Positions 1,412-44,167 of a stretch of DNA of 64,000 bases are shown piece by piece. The notes beneath the pieces were generated by a model. That model ran no database searches, was not told where the DNA came from, and saw only the letters and a program-made list of their open reading frames with translations. The position numbers and the translations under genes were made by a program. Numbering within the stretch: the first letter of the stretch is position 1; every line of letters begins with the position of its first letter. This stretch comes from Bradyrhizobium nivariense (GTDB lineage Bacteria; Pseudomonadota; Alphaproteobacteria; Rhizobiales; Xanthobacteraceae): positions 124,001 through 188,000 of the forward strand of contig NZ_JARVWW010000008.1 in the NCBI RefSeq assembly GCF_029846715.1, in the 5' to 3' direction.

Positions 1412-2526
1412 GTTGCCGGCTTGTGCGGCTGAGCTTTGTTGCCGTCGACCGCCGACTTGTCCGCAGCCGCAGAGGATTTCTCCGCCACCTCGTCATCAGC
1501 TCCTTGCTTTGCCTCGGGCTTGGCCGCGACCTCACGCGGCGGCGCTTCCTCGGGCCGCTCCGCCGGCAGAAGCGGGGCGACCTGCGGCAGGGGATCCCAG
1601 ACATTCCACTGGCAGATCCGGTAGTCGTTGCGCCGCTGCGCCAGGTCGAGATGGATGTGATCCTCGTGGTACCAGTCCGAGCCGGGGCCGAGCACGGTCG
1701 AAAAGCGCGAGCAGACCGAATGCAGCACGCGCTCGCGCACGTCGCGCGACATGATGCGGTCGGTCAGGCCGATCGACTGCCCGTTGGCGAGCTTGATGGC
1801 GCGGACATCGAGGGCGTTGGCCTTGCCGTGCTCGGACAGCATGGCGCCGACAACGCGGTTGCGGCCACGGCACTCGAAGCTGTCGAAATTGTCGAGATCG
1901 CTGATGGTCGAGCCGAGGCTCGCGGCCAGCGGCACCATGTCCTTGCGCACCCAATCGGCGATCGCCGACGCCATCGTGCAGCGAAGGATCGCCGCTGGCT
2001 TGACCGCCACCTTGCGCTTGTCCGGCAGCACGATGGCTTCGAGCCGCACCAGATCCTCACCGCCGCAGGCGCCGGGGCCATGGATGTCCGGGATGGACGG
2101 CGCGATAGCGATCTCCTCGGTCAACGCGAGGCGGCAGGCCGAGACCTGCTTCTCGGGCGGCGGCGCGGCCTCGGCGGGCTTGTTGGCGCCAGGCTTGTCC
2201 GCGGAAGGCTTGTCGGGGGACGGCTTGTCGGGAGAAGGCCTTTCCGGGGAAGCCTTGCCGTCGGTCTCCGGAGGGGCCTCGTCCGATGCTTTGGGGGCCT
2301 CCTCGGGGCGTGGTCTCGGGAGCGGGACCTTGGCAGAATGAACCGTCGCGCGCGGCCGTGGTGCAGCAATGCCGAAGATATCCAGCGGGAAAGCATATTT
2401 TCGCGCCTCCGCCCTCTCCGCAAGCACCAGCGACAGCCCGAGTGCGGCGGTAACCATTGCCGCGCCGGCGGACATATAGCCGCGACAAGACCATTTGCGG
2501 CGAAAGGCCGGCAGGCTAAAACTCAT
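1396..2526 (-). CDS. Extensin-like C-terminal domain protein, secreted
   Basis: The protein has 376 residues, starting at MSFSLPAFRRKW (the longer frame to 2559 adds an unlikely leader). A signal or anchor segment near residues 18-40 is followed by a Pro/Lys/Asp-rich low-complexity linker containing repeats of D-K-P-S-P. The C-terminal domain matches the bacterial extensin-like family: conserved cysteines, E-H-G-x-A-x-A-L-D-V and W-Y-H-E-D-H-I-H-L-D-L. The His/Asp pattern recalls M15-type zinc peptidases, so a periplasmic peptidoglycan-related role is inferred. The gene converges on the YkuD transpeptidase gene, another envelope gene. Confidence 0.85.
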   Translation of the reverse strand: MSFSLPAFRRKWSCRGYMSAGAAMVTAALGLSLVLAERAEARKYAFPLDIFGIAAPRPRATVHSAKVPLPRPRPEEAPKASDEAPPETDGKASPERPSPDKPSPDKPSADKPGANKPAEAAPPPEKQVSACRLALTEEIAIAPSIPDIHGPGACGGEDLVRLEAIVLPDKRKVAVKPAAILRCTMASAIADWVRKDMVPLAASLGSTISDLDNFDSFECRGRNRVVGAMLSEHGKANALDVRAIKLANGQSIGLTDRIMSRDVRERVLHSVCSRFSTVLGPGSDWYHEDHIHLDLAQRRNDYRICQWNVWDPLPQVAPLLPAERPEEAPPREVAAKPEAKQGADDEVAEKSSAAADKSAVDGNKAQPHKPATKKRR

Positions 2527-37985: not shown

Positions 37986-38195
37986 TCAACTGCGACGGTC
38001 GCCGGTGATGTTGGGATGACCGCCTGCGGCATCCGATTTCACCAGATGATCCAGCTGTGCACGCTTGCGCGCGATCAGGAGTTGGGCCGCGGCGTCGTCG
38101 AGTCCCTCGCGTTGCAGCTGCCGGATGGCAGAGCCCAGTTCGAGAATCTCGCCGCGCAGTCTCAAGATCCGGTACGTCGCCGGGTCTTCTTCCAC
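37986..38195 (-). CDS. Small helical protein, 69 residues
   Basis: It begins M-E-E-D-P-A-T-Y-R-I-L-R-L-R-G-E-I-L-E-L-G and continues with heptad-like helices (L-Q-R-E-G-L-D-D-A-A-A-Q-L-L-I-A-R-K-R-A-Q-L-D-H-L). Seventeen bases separate it from the upstream 91-residue gene on the same strand, so they are probably one transcript. No family is known to me. Confidence 0.62.
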   Translation of the reverse strand: MEEDPATYRILRLRGEILELGSAIRQLQREGLDDAAAQLLIARKRAQLDHLVKSDAAGGHPNITGDRRS

Positions 38196-38212
38196 GGCAC
38201 GCTCCCAAGCTC

Positions 38213-38488
38213 TCAGTGCCGCGCGAAGGCGCGCACGGAATTGCCGACTTTCTTCCCGGAACGAAGGCGCACCCTATCGCGGACATTCGGCAGGACATCG
38301 CCGCCCCCTGCAGCCTTCCATTCGCCGATCAGCAGATTGATTTTCCGGCGCAGATCCATCTGCGCAAGGGCCTTCTCTGTGCAGTCGCGATCGCGGTCGA
38401 CGAACTCGCGCACGGACGCCTCGACATCGGCCATTTCCAGCCTCAAGGCGCTGATTTTACGTCGAATTTCGTTAATTCTGTTGTCCAT
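38213..38488 (-). CDS. Small coiled-coil protein, 91 residues
   Basis: It begins M-D-N-R-I-N-E-I-R-R-K-I-S-A-L-R-L-E-M-A-D-V-E-A-S-V and has heptad spacing over the first 60 residues. A basic tail follows (V-R-D-R-V-R-L-R-S-G-K-K-V-G). Probably cytoplasmic and self-associating. Its promoter region is unusually AT-rich (38489-38520). Confidence 0.62.
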   Translation of the reverse strand: MDNRINEIRRKISALRLEMADVEASVREFVDRDRDCTEKALAQMDLRRKINLLIGEWKAAGGGDVLPNVRDRVRLRSGKKVGNSVRAFARH

Positions 38489-38549
38489 GGCTTGTTAGAA
38501 CAAAATAAGAACATATAGTCAAGTCAGGATTTCAGGACGGAGCAGCGAC

Positions 38550-38744
38550 ATGCAGGTTCAGGGTAAATACGACGCCAGGGTTTTCCTCACCGAGCAGATG
38601 ACCCGGACACAGGGCCTCAGGCTGAAACGGTTGAGCGAAGAGGCGTATCAACCCGCGCAATATGCGCGGGATCTGTCCTCCAGCGAGGCAGCACGGCGCA
38701 TCCAGGTGCTGGAAGCGGAGATCGAGCTGGCGAATTCCTTCTAG
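38550..38744 (+). CDS. DUF3072-like small protein
   Basis: The protein has 64 residues. The core L-T-E-Q-M-T-R-T-Q-G-L-R-L-K-R-L-S-E-E-A and D-L-S-S-S-E-A-A-R-R-I-Q-V-L-E-A-E-I follow the DUF3072 pattern of a short 'T-x-x-Q-x-x-x-L-K-x-L-S-E-E-A ... S-x-x-E-A-x-x-x-I' helical domain. The function of the family is unknown. Confidence 0.65.
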   Translation: MQVQGKYDARVFLTEQMTRTQGLRLKRLSEEAYQPAQYARDLSSSEAARRIQVLEAEIELANSF

Positions 38745-38831
38745 GCTGCGTCGCGCATCTGGAACGTTGCGGGCCCGCTTTCGGAACCATGCCTGTTTTG
38801 GATGGTTCTCCCCGGCCAAGGGAGAACATGC

Positions 38832-39161
38832 ATGGCACGCAAGGCAACGAAGCGCCGCTACTCGCGCAGCTCCGGCAGCGATGTCGAAACCGAGATGAAA
38901 CGCTACAAGAAGGGTACCGCGAAAAGCGGACGCGGCGGTCGAGGCGGACGCGTGAAGAGCCGCAAGCAGGCGATCGCGATCGGTCTGTCGAAGGCGCGCA
39001 AGAAGGGCAAGAAGGTCCCAAAGAAGGTCTCGAAGCGGAAGACTGCCAAGAAGACATCCAAGAAAACGTCCAAGAAAACTTCCAAGAAAACGTCCAGGAA
39101 AAGTTCGAAGAAAACGTCCAGGAAGACGTCGAAGCGCAAATCCTCCCAACGGTCGCGCTGA
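38832..39161 (+). CDS. Lysine-rich, histone H1-like protein with DUF6496-type N-terminus
   Basis: The protein has 109 residues from the ATG at 38832. The N-terminal 60 residues (M-A-R-K-A-T-K-R-R-Y-S-R, V-K-S-R-K-Q-A-I-A-I-G-L-S-K-A-R-K-K-G) resemble the DUF6496 family. The remainder is a lysine/serine/threonine tail of about nine K-K-T-S or K-K-S-S tetrads ending K-S-S-Q-R-S-R. The tail has the composition of histone H1-like nucleoid proteins, so DNA binding is the likely role (inference). The DNA of the tail is a 12-bp tandem repeat, so tail length may vary between strains. Confidence 0.78.
   Translation: MARKATKRRYSRSSGSDVETEMKRYKKGTAKSGRGGRGGRVKSRKQAIAIGLSKARKKGKKVPKKVSKRKTAKKTSKKTSKKTSKKTSRKSSKKTSRKTSKRKSSQRSR
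39040..39138 (+). repeat. 12-bp tandem repeats encoding the K-K-T-S tail
   Basis: Degenerate copies of AAGAAAACGTCC follow each other in frame. Copy differences are mostly A/G at third positions or conservative Lys/Arg changes. Confidence 0.75.
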
Positions 39162-39167
39162 CTTCAG

Positions 39168-39530
39168 TCAGATCATGCTGCCCGGCATGAAGCAGCGGAT
39201 CGAAATCCCGAACGCGGTCTTCACCGGCCATACCATGGTGCGGCCGGCTCGATTCGGCTCAGTGATCACGGCTTCGTCCGGCACCTCGACCCACTCGCCG
39301 TCGAGGCGCACGCGATAATGTCCGTTGTGCGAGTCCCAGTCGGGATCAGCGACGGCAAATCCATCCGCATCCGAGCAGCACGGACCGAGATGGCTGCGCA
39401 GGCTGTCGAACCACGGCTTGAGGGGTGAGTCCGCGTAGCGGCCGTCGTCACGCCCGACAGCATTTCCACCCCACAGCACGAACGGCGCCACAAGCAGCGC
39501 ACCTATCAGCGAGAGCTTCAATCGATCCAT
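39168..39530 (-). CDS. Exported protein of unknown function with paired cysteines
   Basis: The protein has 120 residues from M-D-R-L-K-L-S-L-I-G-A-L-L-V-A (ATG 39528-39530). A signal peptide spans about 1-25. The mature part has G-P-C-C-S-D-A-D-G, then D-S-H-N-G-H-Y-R-V-R-L-D-G-E-W-V-E-V-P-D-E-A-V, and a late F-G-I-S-I-R-C-F-M-P-G. The C-C-S/D-A-D-G plus W-V-x-V-P motif recurs in small periplasmic alphaproteobacterial proteins. The function is unknown. Confidence 0.68.
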   Translation of the reverse strand: MDRLKLSLIGALLVAPFVLWGGNAVGRDDGRYADSPLKPWFDSLRSHLGPCCSDADGFAVADPDWDSHNGHYRVRLDGEWVEVPDEAVITEPNRAGRTMVWPVKTAFGISIRCFMPGSMI

Positions 39531-39749
39531 GTCGGCACCGATCAATGCGAACTACCGGCCAGCCGCTGAGTGGCGGCAAGTTCGAAGTTCCACGCTTGCA
39601 ATCATCCCGGCGGCTTCGTTGCCGCCGAGTACATACGAGACCCGGAACTGTGATGAGCGAACACGGCTTTTTCGGACGAACCGGGTCATCCTCTCTGCCG
39701 TTAACGAGAATGTTATCGGCGGCCTCCGTGAATCCTGAAGGCGAACAGG

Positions 39750-39775
39750 AAAGGCGGCCCGGGGGCCGCCTTTTT
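39750..39775. terminator. Hairpin terminator downstream of the DegP-like gene
   Basis: AAAGGCGGCC and GGCCGCCTTTTT form a strong stem with a short CGGG loop; A- and T-runs on both sides make it usable in either direction. It lies 26 bases past the stop codon of the minus-strand protease gene. Confidence 0.75.
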
Positions 39776-39800
39776 GGATTTGCACCGATCGACGTTCGAC

Positions 39801-41336
39801 TTATGCGAGCGGCACCGCGACGAACCGGGTCGCCTGCGCGCTTCTGACCTGCAGCAGTACGCTGCGCTTGCCGGACGATTTCGCCTGCGCCAGCTCCGAA
39901 CGGACATCGCCGATGTTGGCGACGGCCTTGCCGCCGACATTGAGGATGACGTCGCCGGTCTGGATGCCGCGCTGCGCGGCCGGCCCCTGCGGATCAACTT
40001 CAGTGACGACGACCCCCTTCTGGCCGGCGCCCTGGACGTCGCCGGCCGGAGCCAGGCTGAGCCCGAGACGCGGCGTGCCGGCATCCGGCTGCGCCTTGCC
40101 CTCGTCCGCGTTAGCCTGCCGCTCGTTCGGCAACTCGCCGAGCGCCAGCGTCACCGTCTTGCTGTCGCCCTTATGGACGACATCGAGCTTCACGGATGTG
40201 CCCGGCGCCAGGGTAGCGATGGTGCGGGCGAGATCGCGGGAGTCCTTGATCGCGGTGCCGTTGACGGCGGTGATGACGTCGCCCGCCTCGATGCCCGCCT
40301 TCGCCGCCGGGCTGCCGTCCTGCGGATTGTCCACGATCGCGCCGCGCGCCTCCTTGAGGCCGAGGCTGTCGGCGATATCCGATGTCACCGGCTGCACCTG
40401 CACGCCGAGCCAGCCGCGTGTGACCGCGCCCTTGTCCTTCAACTGTGCGACGACGAGCTTTGCCGTCGAGGCCGGAATGTCGAAGCCGATGCCGACCGAG
40501 CCGCCGGAGGGCGAGAAGATCGCGGTGTTCACGCCGATCACATTGCCGCTCATGTCGAAGGCCGGACCGCCGGAATTGCCCTTGTTGATCGGCGCGTCGA
40601 TCTGGATGAAATCGTCATAGGGACCGTTGCCGATGTCGCGGCCGCTGGCCGAGACGATGCCGGCGGTCACGGTGCCGCCGAGCCCGAAGGGATTGCCGAC
40701 GGCGACCACCCAGTCGCCGATGCGCGGCTTCTGGTCCGAGAATTTGACGAACGGAAAATCCTTCCTGCCCTCGACCTTGATCAGCGCAAGATCGGTCTTC
40801 GGATCGGTCCCGACCACCTTTGCGGTATAGATCGCGCCGTCGTCCATCGTCACCTGCACCGACGCGGCGTGGTCGACGACATGGTTGTTGGTCACGGCAT
40901 AGCCGTCGGCGGAGATGAAGAAGCCGGAGCCCTCACCCGTGATCATCTGGTGGCGCTGGCGCGGCATGCCGTTCATGCCACCCGGACCACGGAAGCCGAA
41001 TTGTCGTGAGAACTGGTCGAACGGCGCGTCTGCGTCCGAATCCATCCGGTTCTGTTGCAGCATCGCGCTGTTGTCGTTGTCCTGGTCAATCCTGACCCGC
41101 ACCGAGATGACGGCGGGTTTGACCTTGCTGACGAGATCGCCGAAGCCCGGCAGTGTCGCGGCGGTCTCCGCGGCCTGGGCGGGCGCAATGAAGGAGGTCG
41201 CGCTGAACGGCGAAGAGCCGGGAGCAGTCGCCAGCAGGGCCACGCCAAGTGCGGCCGCGGTGCCGAGCAGCGCGAGCCGGCGCGGCCTCAGGATATTGCG
41301 GGACGTGGTGGTGTCGGAATTGACGCGGTCGTTCAT
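39801..41336 (-). CDS. degP: DegP/HtrA-family (Do) periplasmic serine protease
   Basis: The protein has 511 residues from M-N-D-R-V-N-S-D (ATG 41334-41336). A basic N-terminus and hydrophobic segment (about 20-40) export it. The trypsin-like domain has the catalytic triad in T-N-N-H-V-V, T-D-L-A-L-I and G-N-S-G-G-P. Two PDZ domains follow (G-W-L-G-V-Q-V-Q-P-V; then G-L-S-L-A-P and G-D-V-I-L-N-V-G-G). It degrades or chaperones misfolded envelope proteins. The leader holds an 11-bp inverted repeat. Start choice avoids an upstream ATG at 41390 that would run through that repeat. Confidence 0.9.
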   Translation of the reverse strand: MNDRVNSDTTTSRNILRPRRLALLGTAAALGVALLATAPGSSPFSATSFIAPAQAAETAATLPGFGDLVSKVKPAVISVRVRIDQDNDNSAMLQQNRMDSDADAPFDQFSRQFGFRGPGGMNGMPRQRHQMITGEGSGFFISADGYAVTNNHVVDHAASVQVTMDDGAIYTAKVVGTDPKTDLALIKVEGRKDFPFVKFSDQKPRIGDWVVAVGNPFGLGGTVTAGIVSASGRDIGNGPYDDFIQIDAPINKGNSGGPAFDMSGNVIGVNTAIFSPSGGSVGIGFDIPASTAKLVVAQLKDKGAVTRGWLGVQVQPVTSDIADSLGLKEARGAIVDNPQDGSPAAKAGIEAGDVITAVNGTAIKDSRDLARTIATLAPGTSVKLDVVHKGDSKTVTLALGELPNERQANADEGKAQPDAGTPRLGLSLAPAGDVQGAGQKGVVVTEVDPQGPAAQRGIQTGDVILNVGGKAVANIGDVRSELAQAKSSGKRSVLLQVRSAQATRFVAVPLA

Positions 41337-41346
41337 GTCGATATGT

Positions 41347-41380
41347 CCATGTTGGGTAAGTCGCCTTGCACCCAACATGG
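41347..41380 (-). promoter_or_regulatory. Perfect 11-bp inverted repeat in the degP leader
   Basis: CCATGTTGGGT (41347-41357) and ACCCAACATGG (41370-41380) surround a 12-base centre. The proximal arm ends eleven bases before the degP ATG. It could be a dimeric repressor or activator site, or an RNA hairpin at the ribosome binding region, since no other Shine-Dalgarno sequence is obvious. Confidence 0.55.
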
Positions 41381-41542
41381 CGGACGCCACCTTACAGCGT
41401 CCCGTCCACGCAATTAAATCTTGGCAAAGAAGACACGATCGGAGGTCGGACGAAATGCTTCGAGCCGACGCGGTACCCGATGCGACGGACGACGACGCCC
41501 CGGTGCAAATGTCGCTTCAGCGGAAGCGGTACGCGTGCGCCG

Positions 41543-41755
41543 TCACGCCGCGGCAGGCCTCTCCCACCCCGGGGCCTCGACGGCGTCCTCGTCGTGTTGC
41601 GCATTGCACGCGTCGAAATGCGCCTTGAGTTCGACTTCGGCGAGATGTTCGAAATGTTCGGCCTGACCGAGCAGTTCCCAGTTCTGGAGCGGCCGGTAGG
41701 CGGCCTGCTGACGACAGAGGGACGCCAGCGCGCGGTAGCGACGTACGTTCTCCAT
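41543..41755 (-). CDS. Small protein of the E-N-V-R-R-Y-R family (copy 1)
   Basis: The protein has 70 residues. The ATG at 41753-41755 follows GAGGGAGGGTCTC, a good ribosome binding site, so the longer frame to 41896 is rejected. It begins M-E-N-V-R-R-Y-R-A-L-A-S-L-C-R-Q-Q-A-A-Y-R-P and continues N-W-E-L-L-G-Q-A-E-H-F-E-H-L-A-E-V-E-L. A clear paralogue is encoded at 52074-52283. The helical, soluble protein has no assigned function. Confidence 0.68.
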   Translation of the reverse strand: MENVRRYRALASLCRQQAAYRPLQNWELLGQAEHFEHLAEVELKAHFDACNAQHDEDAVEAPGWERPAAA

Positions 41756-41991
41756 GAGACCCTCCCTCGCATTCACAGAGCTTATTGCCCTTATTTGCGT
41801 CAGGCCGATGGCGGTTATGCAAAAGATTTGCTGTGCCCGCCCGCGCGCCAGACCCCGGTTGGTTCTAGGAAATGCGTATTCAGGCAAAAGTTCCAATCAG
41901 CGCGAACTCAGCGCTCGGAACCTGTCGCAGGCCAATGGCTAGGCGTAGAGGCGCCGCTCCACGGTCACGCCGACGAGGTCGAGATAGCGCT

Positions 41992-42729
41992 CTACCGGAT
42001 GAGCGCGGTCTCGCCGAGACGCGCCGGCCTCCCGGAAATGTCTTGCAACTTTGGAACTCTGCCGGCCTCCGCCGCGACGCGAATGGCCGCGATGTTCGCG
42101 GCATAGTCCGCGCTGCTCTTGCCGCGAAACACGGCGGAACCCGCCACAAGCGTATCGGCACCTGCAGCGGCCACGGCAGCGGCGTTGTCGCGCGTGATGC
42201 CGCCGTCCACCTCGAGCCGGATCGGCCGGTCGCCGATCATGCTTCGAATGCGCCTGATCTTCTCGAGCTGGGACTCGAGAAAGGACTGGCCGCCAAAGCC
42301 CGGATTGACCGTCATCACCAGTACGAGGTCGAGACGATCGAGCACATATTCGATCGCGCTTTCGGAAGTAGCGGGACACAGGCTGACACCGGCTTTCTTG
42401 CCGAGCGCGCGGATGGCCTGAAGCGAGCGGTCGAGATGGACACCGGCTTCGGCATGCACCGTGATGACATCCGCTCCGGCCTTCGCGAATGCTTCGAGAT
42501 AAGGATCGGCGGGCGCGATCATGAGATGCACGTCGAACATTTTCTTCGTCAGCGGCCGGATCGCCTTGATGACGTCGGCGCCATAGCTGATGTTCGGGAC
42601 GAAATGCCCGTCCATGACGTCGCAATGAATCCAGTCGGCACCCGCCGCGTCGATCGCCGCGATCTCCTCGCCGAGGCGCGCAAAATCTGCAGCCAGGATC
42701 GAAGGCGCGATGAGGATTTCTCTCGTCAT
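41992..42729 (-). CDS. cbbE: Ribulose-phosphate 3-epimerase of the cbb operon
   Basis: The protein has 245 residues. It is a TIM barrel with the RPE pattern: [43 protein letters not shown] and V-D-G-G-I-T. The metal-binding His/Asp residues are in place. It interconverts xylulose-5-phosphate and ribulose-5-phosphate for ribulose bisphosphate regeneration. Its ATG overlaps the cbbX stop by four bases. It is the last gene of the operon. Confidence 0.93.
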
Positions 42730-43661
42730 GGTTTCGCACTCCTCTGCGTGTCTGCACCGCCGCTGAAAACGCGGCTCGCCAGGACGTCGATGGGATCGAT
42801 CGTTTCGAGGTCGGCGATATCGAGCGTGCGGTCGAGATCGGACACTAGGCGATCGGCCTGCCGCAGGCGGATGCGGTCGACGGCGTTGCGGATCGAGCGC
42901 GCATTTGAGAAGAACGGCTGGGTCCGGCGCAGCGCGACGTACTTCTCGAAGGCCTCGCGCGCCGCCGCCGAGAAGCGATAGCCCCGCTCCGTCAGCATAA
43001 GCTCGGCGATGACGAGCAGCTCGGCTTCCGCATAGTCCGGGAATTCGATGTGGTGCGCGATCCGCGAGCGGAACCCGGGATTGGAGGCGAAGAAGTTCGT
43101 CATCCGCTCGCCATAGCCGGCAAGGATGACGACGAGGTCCTCGCGCTGGTTCTCCATCACCTGGAGCAGAATTTCGATCGCCTCCTGGCCGTAGTCGCGC
43201 TCGTTATCCGGCCGGTGCAGATAATAGGCCTCGTCGATGAACAACACGCCGCCCATCGCCTTCTTCAGGATCTCTTTGGTCTTCGGCGCGGTGTGGCCGA
43301 TATACTGGCCGACGAGATCGTCGCGCGTCACCGAGATCACCTGCCCGCGCCGCACGAAGCCGAGGCCGTGCAGGATCTTTGCCATGCGCAGCGCGACGGT
43401 CGTCTTGCCGGTGCCGGGATTGCCGGTAAACGACATGTGCAGCGTCGGCGGCGACGACGCCAATCCCGCACGCTGCCGGATGCGTTCGATCAACAAGAGC
43501 GACGCGATCTGGCGCACGCGGTTCTTCACCGGCTTCAATCCGATCAGCTCCCGCTCGAGCTGTTGCAGCGTGTCGGTGATGCCGGCCGCTTCGGCCTCCT
43601 TGCGGAGATCGAAATTGGTCTCGCCGGGCTCGGTGGTCATTGCGTGGGGAACATCCAGCAT
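42726..43661 (-). CDS. cbbX: Red-type RuBisCO activase CbbX (AAA+)
   Basis: The protein has 311 residues, starting M-L-D-V-P-H-A-M (ATG 43659-43661) with GAGGTG upstream; the frame is open to 44093 but that part overlaps cbbS. Walker A G-N-P-G-T-G-K-T (80-87), the pore loop Y-I-G-H-T-A-P (120-126) and Walker B V-L-F-I-D-E-A (139-145) are all present. CbbX hexamers are activated by ribulose bisphosphate and pull the large-subunit C-terminus of red-type RuBisCO to release inhibitory sugar phosphates. A hairpin in the 98-base gap after cbbS may lower its expression relative to RuBisCO. Confidence 0.94.
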
Positions 43662-43680
43662 CGGCACCTCGAAGAAAAGA

Positions 43681-43706
43681 GCTTCGCCGCGGGGGAGCGG
43701 CGAAGC
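43681..43706 (-). terminator. Hairpin with T-rich tail between cbbS and cbbX
   Basis: GCTTCGCCGC and GCGGCGAAGC form a perfect 10-bp stem with a six-base loop. Read in the operon direction it is followed by TCTTTTCTT. It sits 54 bases after the cbbS stop and ends 20 bases before the cbbX start. Confidence 0.7.
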
Positions 43707-43759
43707 AGTGGTCCGCCAAGGAAACGGAGCAGGGAGTGCTCCGCGCGGAGGAGGATGAC

Positions 43760-44167
43760 TTAGGTTGGCGCGTGCGCGGGCTGCCGGCGCACGGTGGTGT
43801 AGCGGATCGCACGTCCCCCCACCTCCTGCCGCACCAGATCGAACTCGGCCTCCTGCGGCGGCCGGTTGACGATGAACGAGATCCGCACCGATTCCCAACC
43901 ATGGCTGGAGTCGAAGCCGCTGAGGCGGATGTAGCGGTCGCCATACACTCTGCGGCATTCGGCGAGCTCCATCATCACGCCGGCGGCGTCCTGGAGATCG
44001 AACATCGGCAGGCCCCACATCTCCCAATAGGTGTTGCGAGGATGCGGATCGTCGGTGAACTCGATGTTCACCGCCCAACCTTTGGTGAGACAATACTGCA
44101 CCTGCTTGGTGATCTGATCGTCGGTCAGATCGGGCAGGAACGAGAAACAGCCTTGGGTCAGCTTCAT
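43760..44167 (-). CDS. cbbS: RuBisCO small subunit, red type
   Basis: The protein has 135 residues from [16 protein letters not shown] (ATG 44165-44167, preceded by GAGGAGATTTGAC). Hallmarks are D-D-Q-I-x-K-Q-V-Q-Y-C-L, [10 protein letters not shown] and a C-terminal extension ([13 protein letters not shown]) typical of form IC/ID small subunits that build a beta-barrel at the fourfold axis. It assembles with CbbL as L8S8. Only 11 bases separate it from cbbL. Confidence 0.95.

Follow-up and report, generated by a model that had tools for sequence, protein, structure and literature searches.

A conserved RNA element in the gap between cbbS and cbbX

The window, the 64-kb stretch of DNA analysed here, lies inside a 9.0-Mb Bradyrhizobium genome and carries on its minus strand a cbb operon with the gene order cbbF-P-T-A-L-S-X-E. 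The gene for the RuBisCO small subunit, cbbS (43760..44167, minus strand), was left unnamed by the profile search and is identified by its place in the operon and by its match to annotated small subunits in loci L206-L209. It is followed by cbbX (42726..43661, minus strand), which encodes the red-type RuBisCO activase (TIGR02880, 542.7 bits against a cut-off of 459) and begins at the ATG at 43661 or at an alternative ATG at 43640, and by cbbE/rpe (41992..42729, minus strand; TIGR01163), which overlaps the end of cbbX by four bases (42726-42729), an overlap that suggests coupled translation of the two genes. Between the cbbS stop codon (43762-43760) and the first cbbX ATG lie 98 bases, which agrees with the sequence-only reading that this is the sole long gap of a tight operon, as the remaining junctions from cbbF to cbbE measure at most 31 bases or overlap. 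Elsewhere in the window, a small ORF on the plus strand (38802-39161) encodes a lysine-rich, histone-H1-like product with KKTSKKTSRKS repeats.

The gap contains the originally reported terminator hairpin (43681..43706, minus strand), for which the sequence, terminator scans and covariation (see below) all speak. Read on the minus strand, 43706..43681 is GCTTCGCCGC TCCCCC GCGGCGAAGC, in which ten out of ten pairs are perfect, eight of them G-C, around a 6-nt loop. The claimed perfect, GC-rich 10-bp stem with the tail TCTTTTCTTC directly on its 3' side is indeed present, and the full U-rich tail, UCUUUUCUUC (43671..43680, minus strand; taken from the sequence and from a comparison of tails over 94 loci), gives the GC-rich stem-loop plus U-rich tract that characterises the structure of an intrinsic terminator. 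Immediately 3' of the tail the sequence has a probable Shine-Dalgarno motif for cbbX, GAGG (43667..43670, minus strand), 5 nt before ATG 43661. In four scans jointly covering the 64 kb, the hairpin was the strongest terminator-like site, the others having at most nine pairs and at most five G-C pairs, and it ranked first of four, at -19.7 kcal/mol, in a separate scan of both strands (tail score of at least 3.5, -10 kcal/mol or better). The folding of the surrounding 126-nt region beats 200 of 200 dinucleotide shuffles (z -4.2). On the minus strand 3' of cbbE (38000-41992), the scan found no terminator-like site.

The hairpin had been read as standing alone, and here the picture had to be extended: the hairpin stands, but it accounts for no more than the 3' half of a longer conserved RNA whose 40 upstream bases form a second, equally conserved domain. 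Matches to the two covariance models described below delimit the whole element, roughly 80 bases at 43671..43749 (minus strand), as a P1-P2 stem-loop, a linker, the terminator and the U-rich tail. A comparison of relatives' cbbS-cbbX gaps places the beginning of the conserved block about 10 nt past the cbbS stop. The element opens with the P1 5' strand UCCGC (strand A; 43745..43749, minus strand, as are all parts that follow), 10 nt 3' of the stop in the window and 8-16 nt past it across 94 loci, and continues with the P2 5' strand CGGAGC (43738..43743), the apical loop ACUCCCU (43731..43737), which is complementary to a Shine-Dalgarno-type sequence and contains CUCCC in 86 of the 94 loci, and the P2 3' strand GCUCCG (43725..43730). 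A bulge, UUUCCUU (43718..43724), separates the 3' strands of P2 and P1, the latter being (G)GCGGA (strand B; 43712..43717), which folding with strand A masked also reveals as an alternative partner of the terminator 5' arm, and an unpaired linker, CCACU (43707..43711), leads into the terminator. Folded alone, the upstream domain has a median z of -2.95 against shuffles, with 38 of 51 members below -2 (L091 skipped); folding is near chance in some members, six of which have z of -0.68 to -0.79, including L161, L228, L090, L314 and L221.

Conservation and covariation of both domains

Conservation was measured over 94 loci (L002-L111 minus L074, L081 and L088 and minus 13 set apart beforehand, L087, L089, L090 and L092-L101). 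Mean pairwise identity reaches 99.6 and 100% in the two P1 arms, the latter value applying to GCGGA, 98.6 and 96.7% in the P2 arms, and 99.1 and 99.4% in the terminator arms; the linker (93%), the apical loop and tail (87% each) and the bulge (84%) are less conserved. The terminator loop and the bases past the tail have 77% identity each, the spacer between the cbbS stop and P1 53% and cbbS third codon positions 78%. The element thus has a sharp boundary, with stem arms at 97-100% versus the spacer at 53%. A check on conservation of the hairpin in related operons, as proposed with the sequence-only reading, is therefore strongly positive, its arms being 99% identical over these loci and showing compensatory changes.

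Those changes were counted in two alignments. Among 36 window-clade sequences chosen for diversity (35 of 88 distinct trimmed sequences, several re-trimmed, plus L079), five pairs changed on both sides, a count reached by none of 500 shuffles, and P1 was invariant. In a second, divergent type of the element (type 2), 17 sequences picked by eye (L161 and L092 left out, L179 overlooked) had nine pairs changed on both sides, again a count that 0 of 500 shuffles attained. The number of further pair types, taken alone, was reached by 136 of 500 shuffles for the window clade and by 28 of 500 for type 2. When 52 loci were analysed as one set, pairing and two-sided changes in P1, in P2 and in the terminator each exceeded those of 1000 of 1000 shuffles, numbers that lean towards structure as the alignment was fitted to the type-2 model and the shuffles ignore relatedness. 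The loci of this set were chosen as expected carriers of the element, the best match per locus being kept from 85, many of which fell on the opposite strand, the hairpins being palindromic. The compensatory changes seen in the helices, within and across the types, are those of a conserved structured RNA.

Two element types and their distribution

Two covariance models were built, R1 from the window clade only and R2 from type-2 sequences only. R1 found its best match in the window's own genome at the element (G000:C144:167671-167750, minus strand; E 2.3e-21), the next having E 0.2. R2, which holds no window-clade sequences, had its best match in the window at 43749..43672 (minus strand; E 2.4e-5; next 0.38) and failed to recover the element of the window when whole genomes were searched at E 0.01. 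Conversely, R1 matched the gap of 13 of 19 type-2 loci at E 0.001 or better and of 16 at 0.01 or better, in a test on loci preselected for likely presence and with opposite-strand matches appearing from E about 0.005; the weakest scores were those of L178 and L164 (E 0.07 each) and L092 (E 2.7). Models of two separate lineages recovering each other's sites indicates that the two types are homologous. Plain DNA searches failed to bridge them, as the window element retrieved seven Bradyrhizobium plasmid records and the Nitrobacter hamburgensis element only itself. A search of Rfam 15 with window positions 43400-44000 gave no match up to E 1, and five type-2 loci gave a single match, to RF02837, taken as chance (21.1 bits versus a gathering score of 49.5, E 0.25).

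At E 1e-4, R1 detected the element in 133 of the 265 Bradyrhizobium genomes searched; these are precisely the ones with a CbbX sharing 88% or more identity with that of the window. A single match was found in 126 of the 133; the other seven have two, each second one lying 56 nt from a second CbbX match. The position next to cbbX was seen at the 94 gap loci and at 21 typed coordinates. An exact-pattern search of GTDB yielded 73 stretches, with titles that include strains of B. diazoefficiens, B. japonicum and B. yuanmingense; 67 have the pattern between cbbS and cbbX, five are clipped at an end but consistent, and one (L354), inside a coding sequence and with 15.4 bits, was dismissed as chance. 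One locus, L326 (JAUEPE010000027.1), is titled Frankia sp. RB7, probably wrongly; between its cbbS and cbbX genes lies an element of the Bradyrhizobium type.

As a class, the terminator-like sites of the window are not enriched over shuffles, as would be expected if the hairpin were due to chance or belonged to a dispersed palindromic repeat. The one strong match in its own genome, the co-occurrence with CbbX in 133 genomes and the covariation leave such an origin with virtually no chance of being correct, and the conservation and covariation refute it.

Type 2 occupies the cbbS-cbbX gap of other Bradyrhizobium, of Nitrobacter hamburgensis and of other genera, and many of the Bradyrhizobium genomes outside the 133 recognised by R1 bear it. 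R2 at E 1e-7 matched 63 of 223 Bradyrhizobium genomes, 62 of them once, and at E 0.01 matched 31 of 296 genomes of the family, some with no RuBisCO genes nearby. Among the weak matches at family level, L236-L239 (R2) were set aside, having no cbbL, S or E homologue nearby; the R1 family search gave further weak matches at L133-L144 plus unlocated ones, and five more came up at order level. Two loci of the order search, L281 and L282, were likewise rejected, with no nearby cbbA, L, S, X or E homologue despite weak R1 and R2 scores. In another family of the order, L279 and L280 (genomes G651 and G725) have a type-2-like element between cbbS and cbbX, and the cbb operon of these two genomes was possibly acquired horizontally.

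Outside the window clade, the element was present at 20 of 75 junction loci, 17 of which are R2 training sequences, and absent from 55, including those of Afipia carboxidovorans, Sinorhizobium meliloti, Paracoccus kondratievae and C. necator. CbbX could be located at 26 element-less junctions, in 19 of which at most 44 nt separate the cbbS stop from the CbbX start used; at element-bearing junctions (n=16) the distance is 102-273 nt. In this survey no CbbX match was obtained at 35 of the 77 loci, in most cases because little of the gene was covered. Since element-less relatives exist, the element is dispensable for making both proteins.

Second copies and a natural variant

Genomes closely resembling Nitrobacter hamburgensis X14 (L207) harbour a second copy of the element. 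In four of five such loci (L213, L214, L215 and L216, at about 1501-1593, minus strand) it lies downstream of cbbA, 132-163 nt past the stop codon; the fifth (L219, 1501-1592, plus strand) has no cbbA, L, S, X or E homologue in the 3.1-kb stretch that contains it. A block of 93 nt is near-identical among the five copies while the flanks have diverged. No cbbX was found in the 3.1-kb stretches around these copies, so they cannot be devices that set a cbbLS-to-cbbX ratio, which suggests that the RNA is useful in its own right, perhaps serving another operon as terminator or stabiliser, or acting as a small RNA. A natural variant occurs at L092 (about 888-975), where P1-P2 is intact and the 3' arm of the terminator and the U-tract are lost, unlike in the very similar L095.

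Possible functions at the 3' end of the cbbLS message

Building on the observed structure, conservation and location of the element, we infer termination, a read-through ratio, stabilisation of the message and a role for the upstream stem-loop. In the reading that we favour, with a probability of roughly 60%, the element is a 3'-end module that ends or protects the cbbLS mRNA and allows partial read-through into cbbX-cbbE. Transcription past cbbS would produce the bulged P1-P2 stem-loop first and then the strong GC-rich hairpin with its short, interrupted U-tract. Most RNA polymerase would probably stop at the hairpin, or the message would be trimmed back to it, leaving an abundant and stable cbbLS mRNA, while a fraction of transcription would continue to cbbX-cbbE. 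The upstream stem-loop may keep cbbS-proximal RNA out of the terminator, shield the 3' end and present the conserved pyrimidine loop.

The tail accords with incomplete termination. It usually has one or two early non-U bases; the longest U run is four in 68 of the 94 loci, and more than four consecutive U are rare. By its sequence the U-tract appears weak to moderate as that of a terminator, so that termination could be weak, and its brevity and interruptions fit partial termination with read-through into cbbX-cbbE, as does the position of the cbbX Shine-Dalgarno motif right behind the tail. The sequence-only reading, in which the hairpin ends most transcripts after cbbLS or guards their message against decay, is partly supported. 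A plain ratio device is not sufficient, since P1-P2 is about as conserved as the terminator and the Nitrobacter-like copies have no cbbX nearby, and a 3'-end module in which the upstream domain acts as a structural stabiliser is itself strained by the sequence invariance of P1, which exceeds what a stabiliser needs.

Alternatively, the cbb mRNA might be transcribed through the gap and cleaved there, the stem-loops shielding cbbLS from 3' exonucleases. Two adjacent GC-rich hairpins at the 3' end of cbbS would suit such selective processing, and according to PMC4423207, transcript ratios in the Clostridium cip-cel operon are set by stem-loops at the 3' ends of its strongly transcribed genes; our element resembles these in having stem-loops at the end of a gene and differs in the U-rich tail behind its hairpin and in having no known processing site. 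Protection by itself, however, needs no T-rich tail, yet a run of at least three T occurs within the first ten tail bases in 93 of 94 loci, and we regard this explanation as rather unlikely.

Transcription attenuators with competing helices are a known class, and in the window clade strand B of P1 and the terminator 5' arm are complementary. A ribosome halted at the cbbS stop could cover strand A, whereupon GGCGGA would pair with UUCGCC of the terminator arm and transcription would enter cbbX. Folding agrees with this for the nascent window RNA, which with strand A masked forms a 7-bp antiterminator (-20.5 versus -20.8 kcal/mol unmasked), and masking yields a similar helix in the related L089; both strands are nearly invariant, and strand A, at 8-16 nt past the stop, is within reach of a ribosome. 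The masked fold of L089 is, however, much weaker (-18.1 versus -25.3), and in each of the five folded sequences the full-length RNA still forms the terminator when the strand is masked. Type 2 has not retained the competing helix: it shrinks to about 4 bp in Nitrobacter (-18.0 versus -26.2) and L185 (-30.5 versus -32.1), L167 forms no alternative helix with the terminator arm, and in L164 and L171 the 4-bp match is broken, as judged by eye. An antiterminator conserved across the family is thus rejected, as the helix forms in both folded window-clade sequences, is short or missing in three of type 2 and is mismatched in L164 and L171, and attenuation cannot be the shared function because the three type-2 sequences have no comparable helix. 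Ribosome-gated attenuation is possible in the window clade only, and we consider it very unlikely.

A different role, compatible with that of a 3'-end module, would be that of a 3'UTR-derived sRNA: RNase cleavage near the cbbS stop could release an RNA of 80-95 nt, comprising the CUCC-loop stem-loop and the terminator tail, that is bound by Hfq and base-pairs in trans to ribosome-binding sites. Pointing this way are the CUCCC of the anti-Shine-Dalgarno loop, present in 86 of the 94 loci, the pyrimidine loops of type-2 copies, many with CUCC or UCCC, and the sharply bounded 93-nt block of the Nitrobacter-like second copies. According to passages of PMC3927594, the Rhizobiales sRNA models SmelA075 and SmelA099 likewise have hairpins with CUCC-rich apical loops, carrying CCUCCUCCC; these models have three or four hairpins that repeat the loop motif, whereas the Bradyrhizobium element has one CUCCC loop and lies inside an operon. 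Several hairpins each with the loop motif, the hallmark of the Rhizobiales anti-Shine-Dalgarno sRNAs, are not found in it, and Rfam 15 shows no relation. Against the sRNA stand also the eight of 94 loci that lack CUCCC, six of which have CUUGUU, CUUGCU, AACUCU or CUCUCG, the single match per genome in most genomes with either model, and two papers on B. japonicum transcripts (PMC4842269 and PMC5082802), whose main texts mention predicted terminators or new sRNAs and do not contain cbb. Autoregulatory pairing with the cbbL ribosome-binding site was rejected: seven window bases are complementary to the site, but in a comparison by eye of 39 cbbL starts, three of them element-less controls, the element did not follow changes of the site in L247, L248, L250 and L253, where the complementarity is lost. 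Overall, the sRNA is plausible though doubtful. We consider it somewhat improbable that both activities are combined, with RNA released from the RuBisCO message pairing with other mRNAs through the CUCC loop, thereby letting the cell sense the level of cbbLS transcription and tune other genes, while the 3' terminator sets the RuBisCO-to-activase ratio.

Relation to known systems and implications

Partial termination after cbbLS, between cbbS and cbbX, was reportedly described by Schaferjohann and colleagues in 1996 for Ralstonia eutropha (Cupriavidus necator). The junction is the same as here, and so is the expected effect, cbbLS exceeding the downstream genes, but the Bradyrhizobium element differs from this intra-operon terminator in its second conserved stem-loop part. 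The gap of C. necator H16 (L356) folds somewhat better than shuffles (z -2.3) and gave neither an R2 match nor, by scan, a hairpin with a U-tract. Homology between the two was discarded, as none was found in sequence or structure, and they are at best analogous.

The main text of a paper on the B. diazoefficiens RuBisCO genes (PMC11397080) does not contain the word terminator. Our literature search, which covered few subscription papers, recognised no description of the cbbS-cbbX element. Judged by the present tests, the element constitutes a new RNA family whose function is of a generally known kind.

Red-type RuBisCO depends on the activase CbbX to stay functional and, to our knowledge, how bacteria set the amounts of the two proteins from one operon has been little studied. 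A covarying two-domain RNA closely linked to the cbbS-cbbX junction, found in 133 of 265 Bradyrhizobium genomes and, as the second type, in 63 of 223, makes this question of amounts directly testable. Were the RNA also to act in trans, the expression of carbon-fixation genes would become linked with further pathways of nitrogen-fixing symbionts and of nitrite oxidisers.
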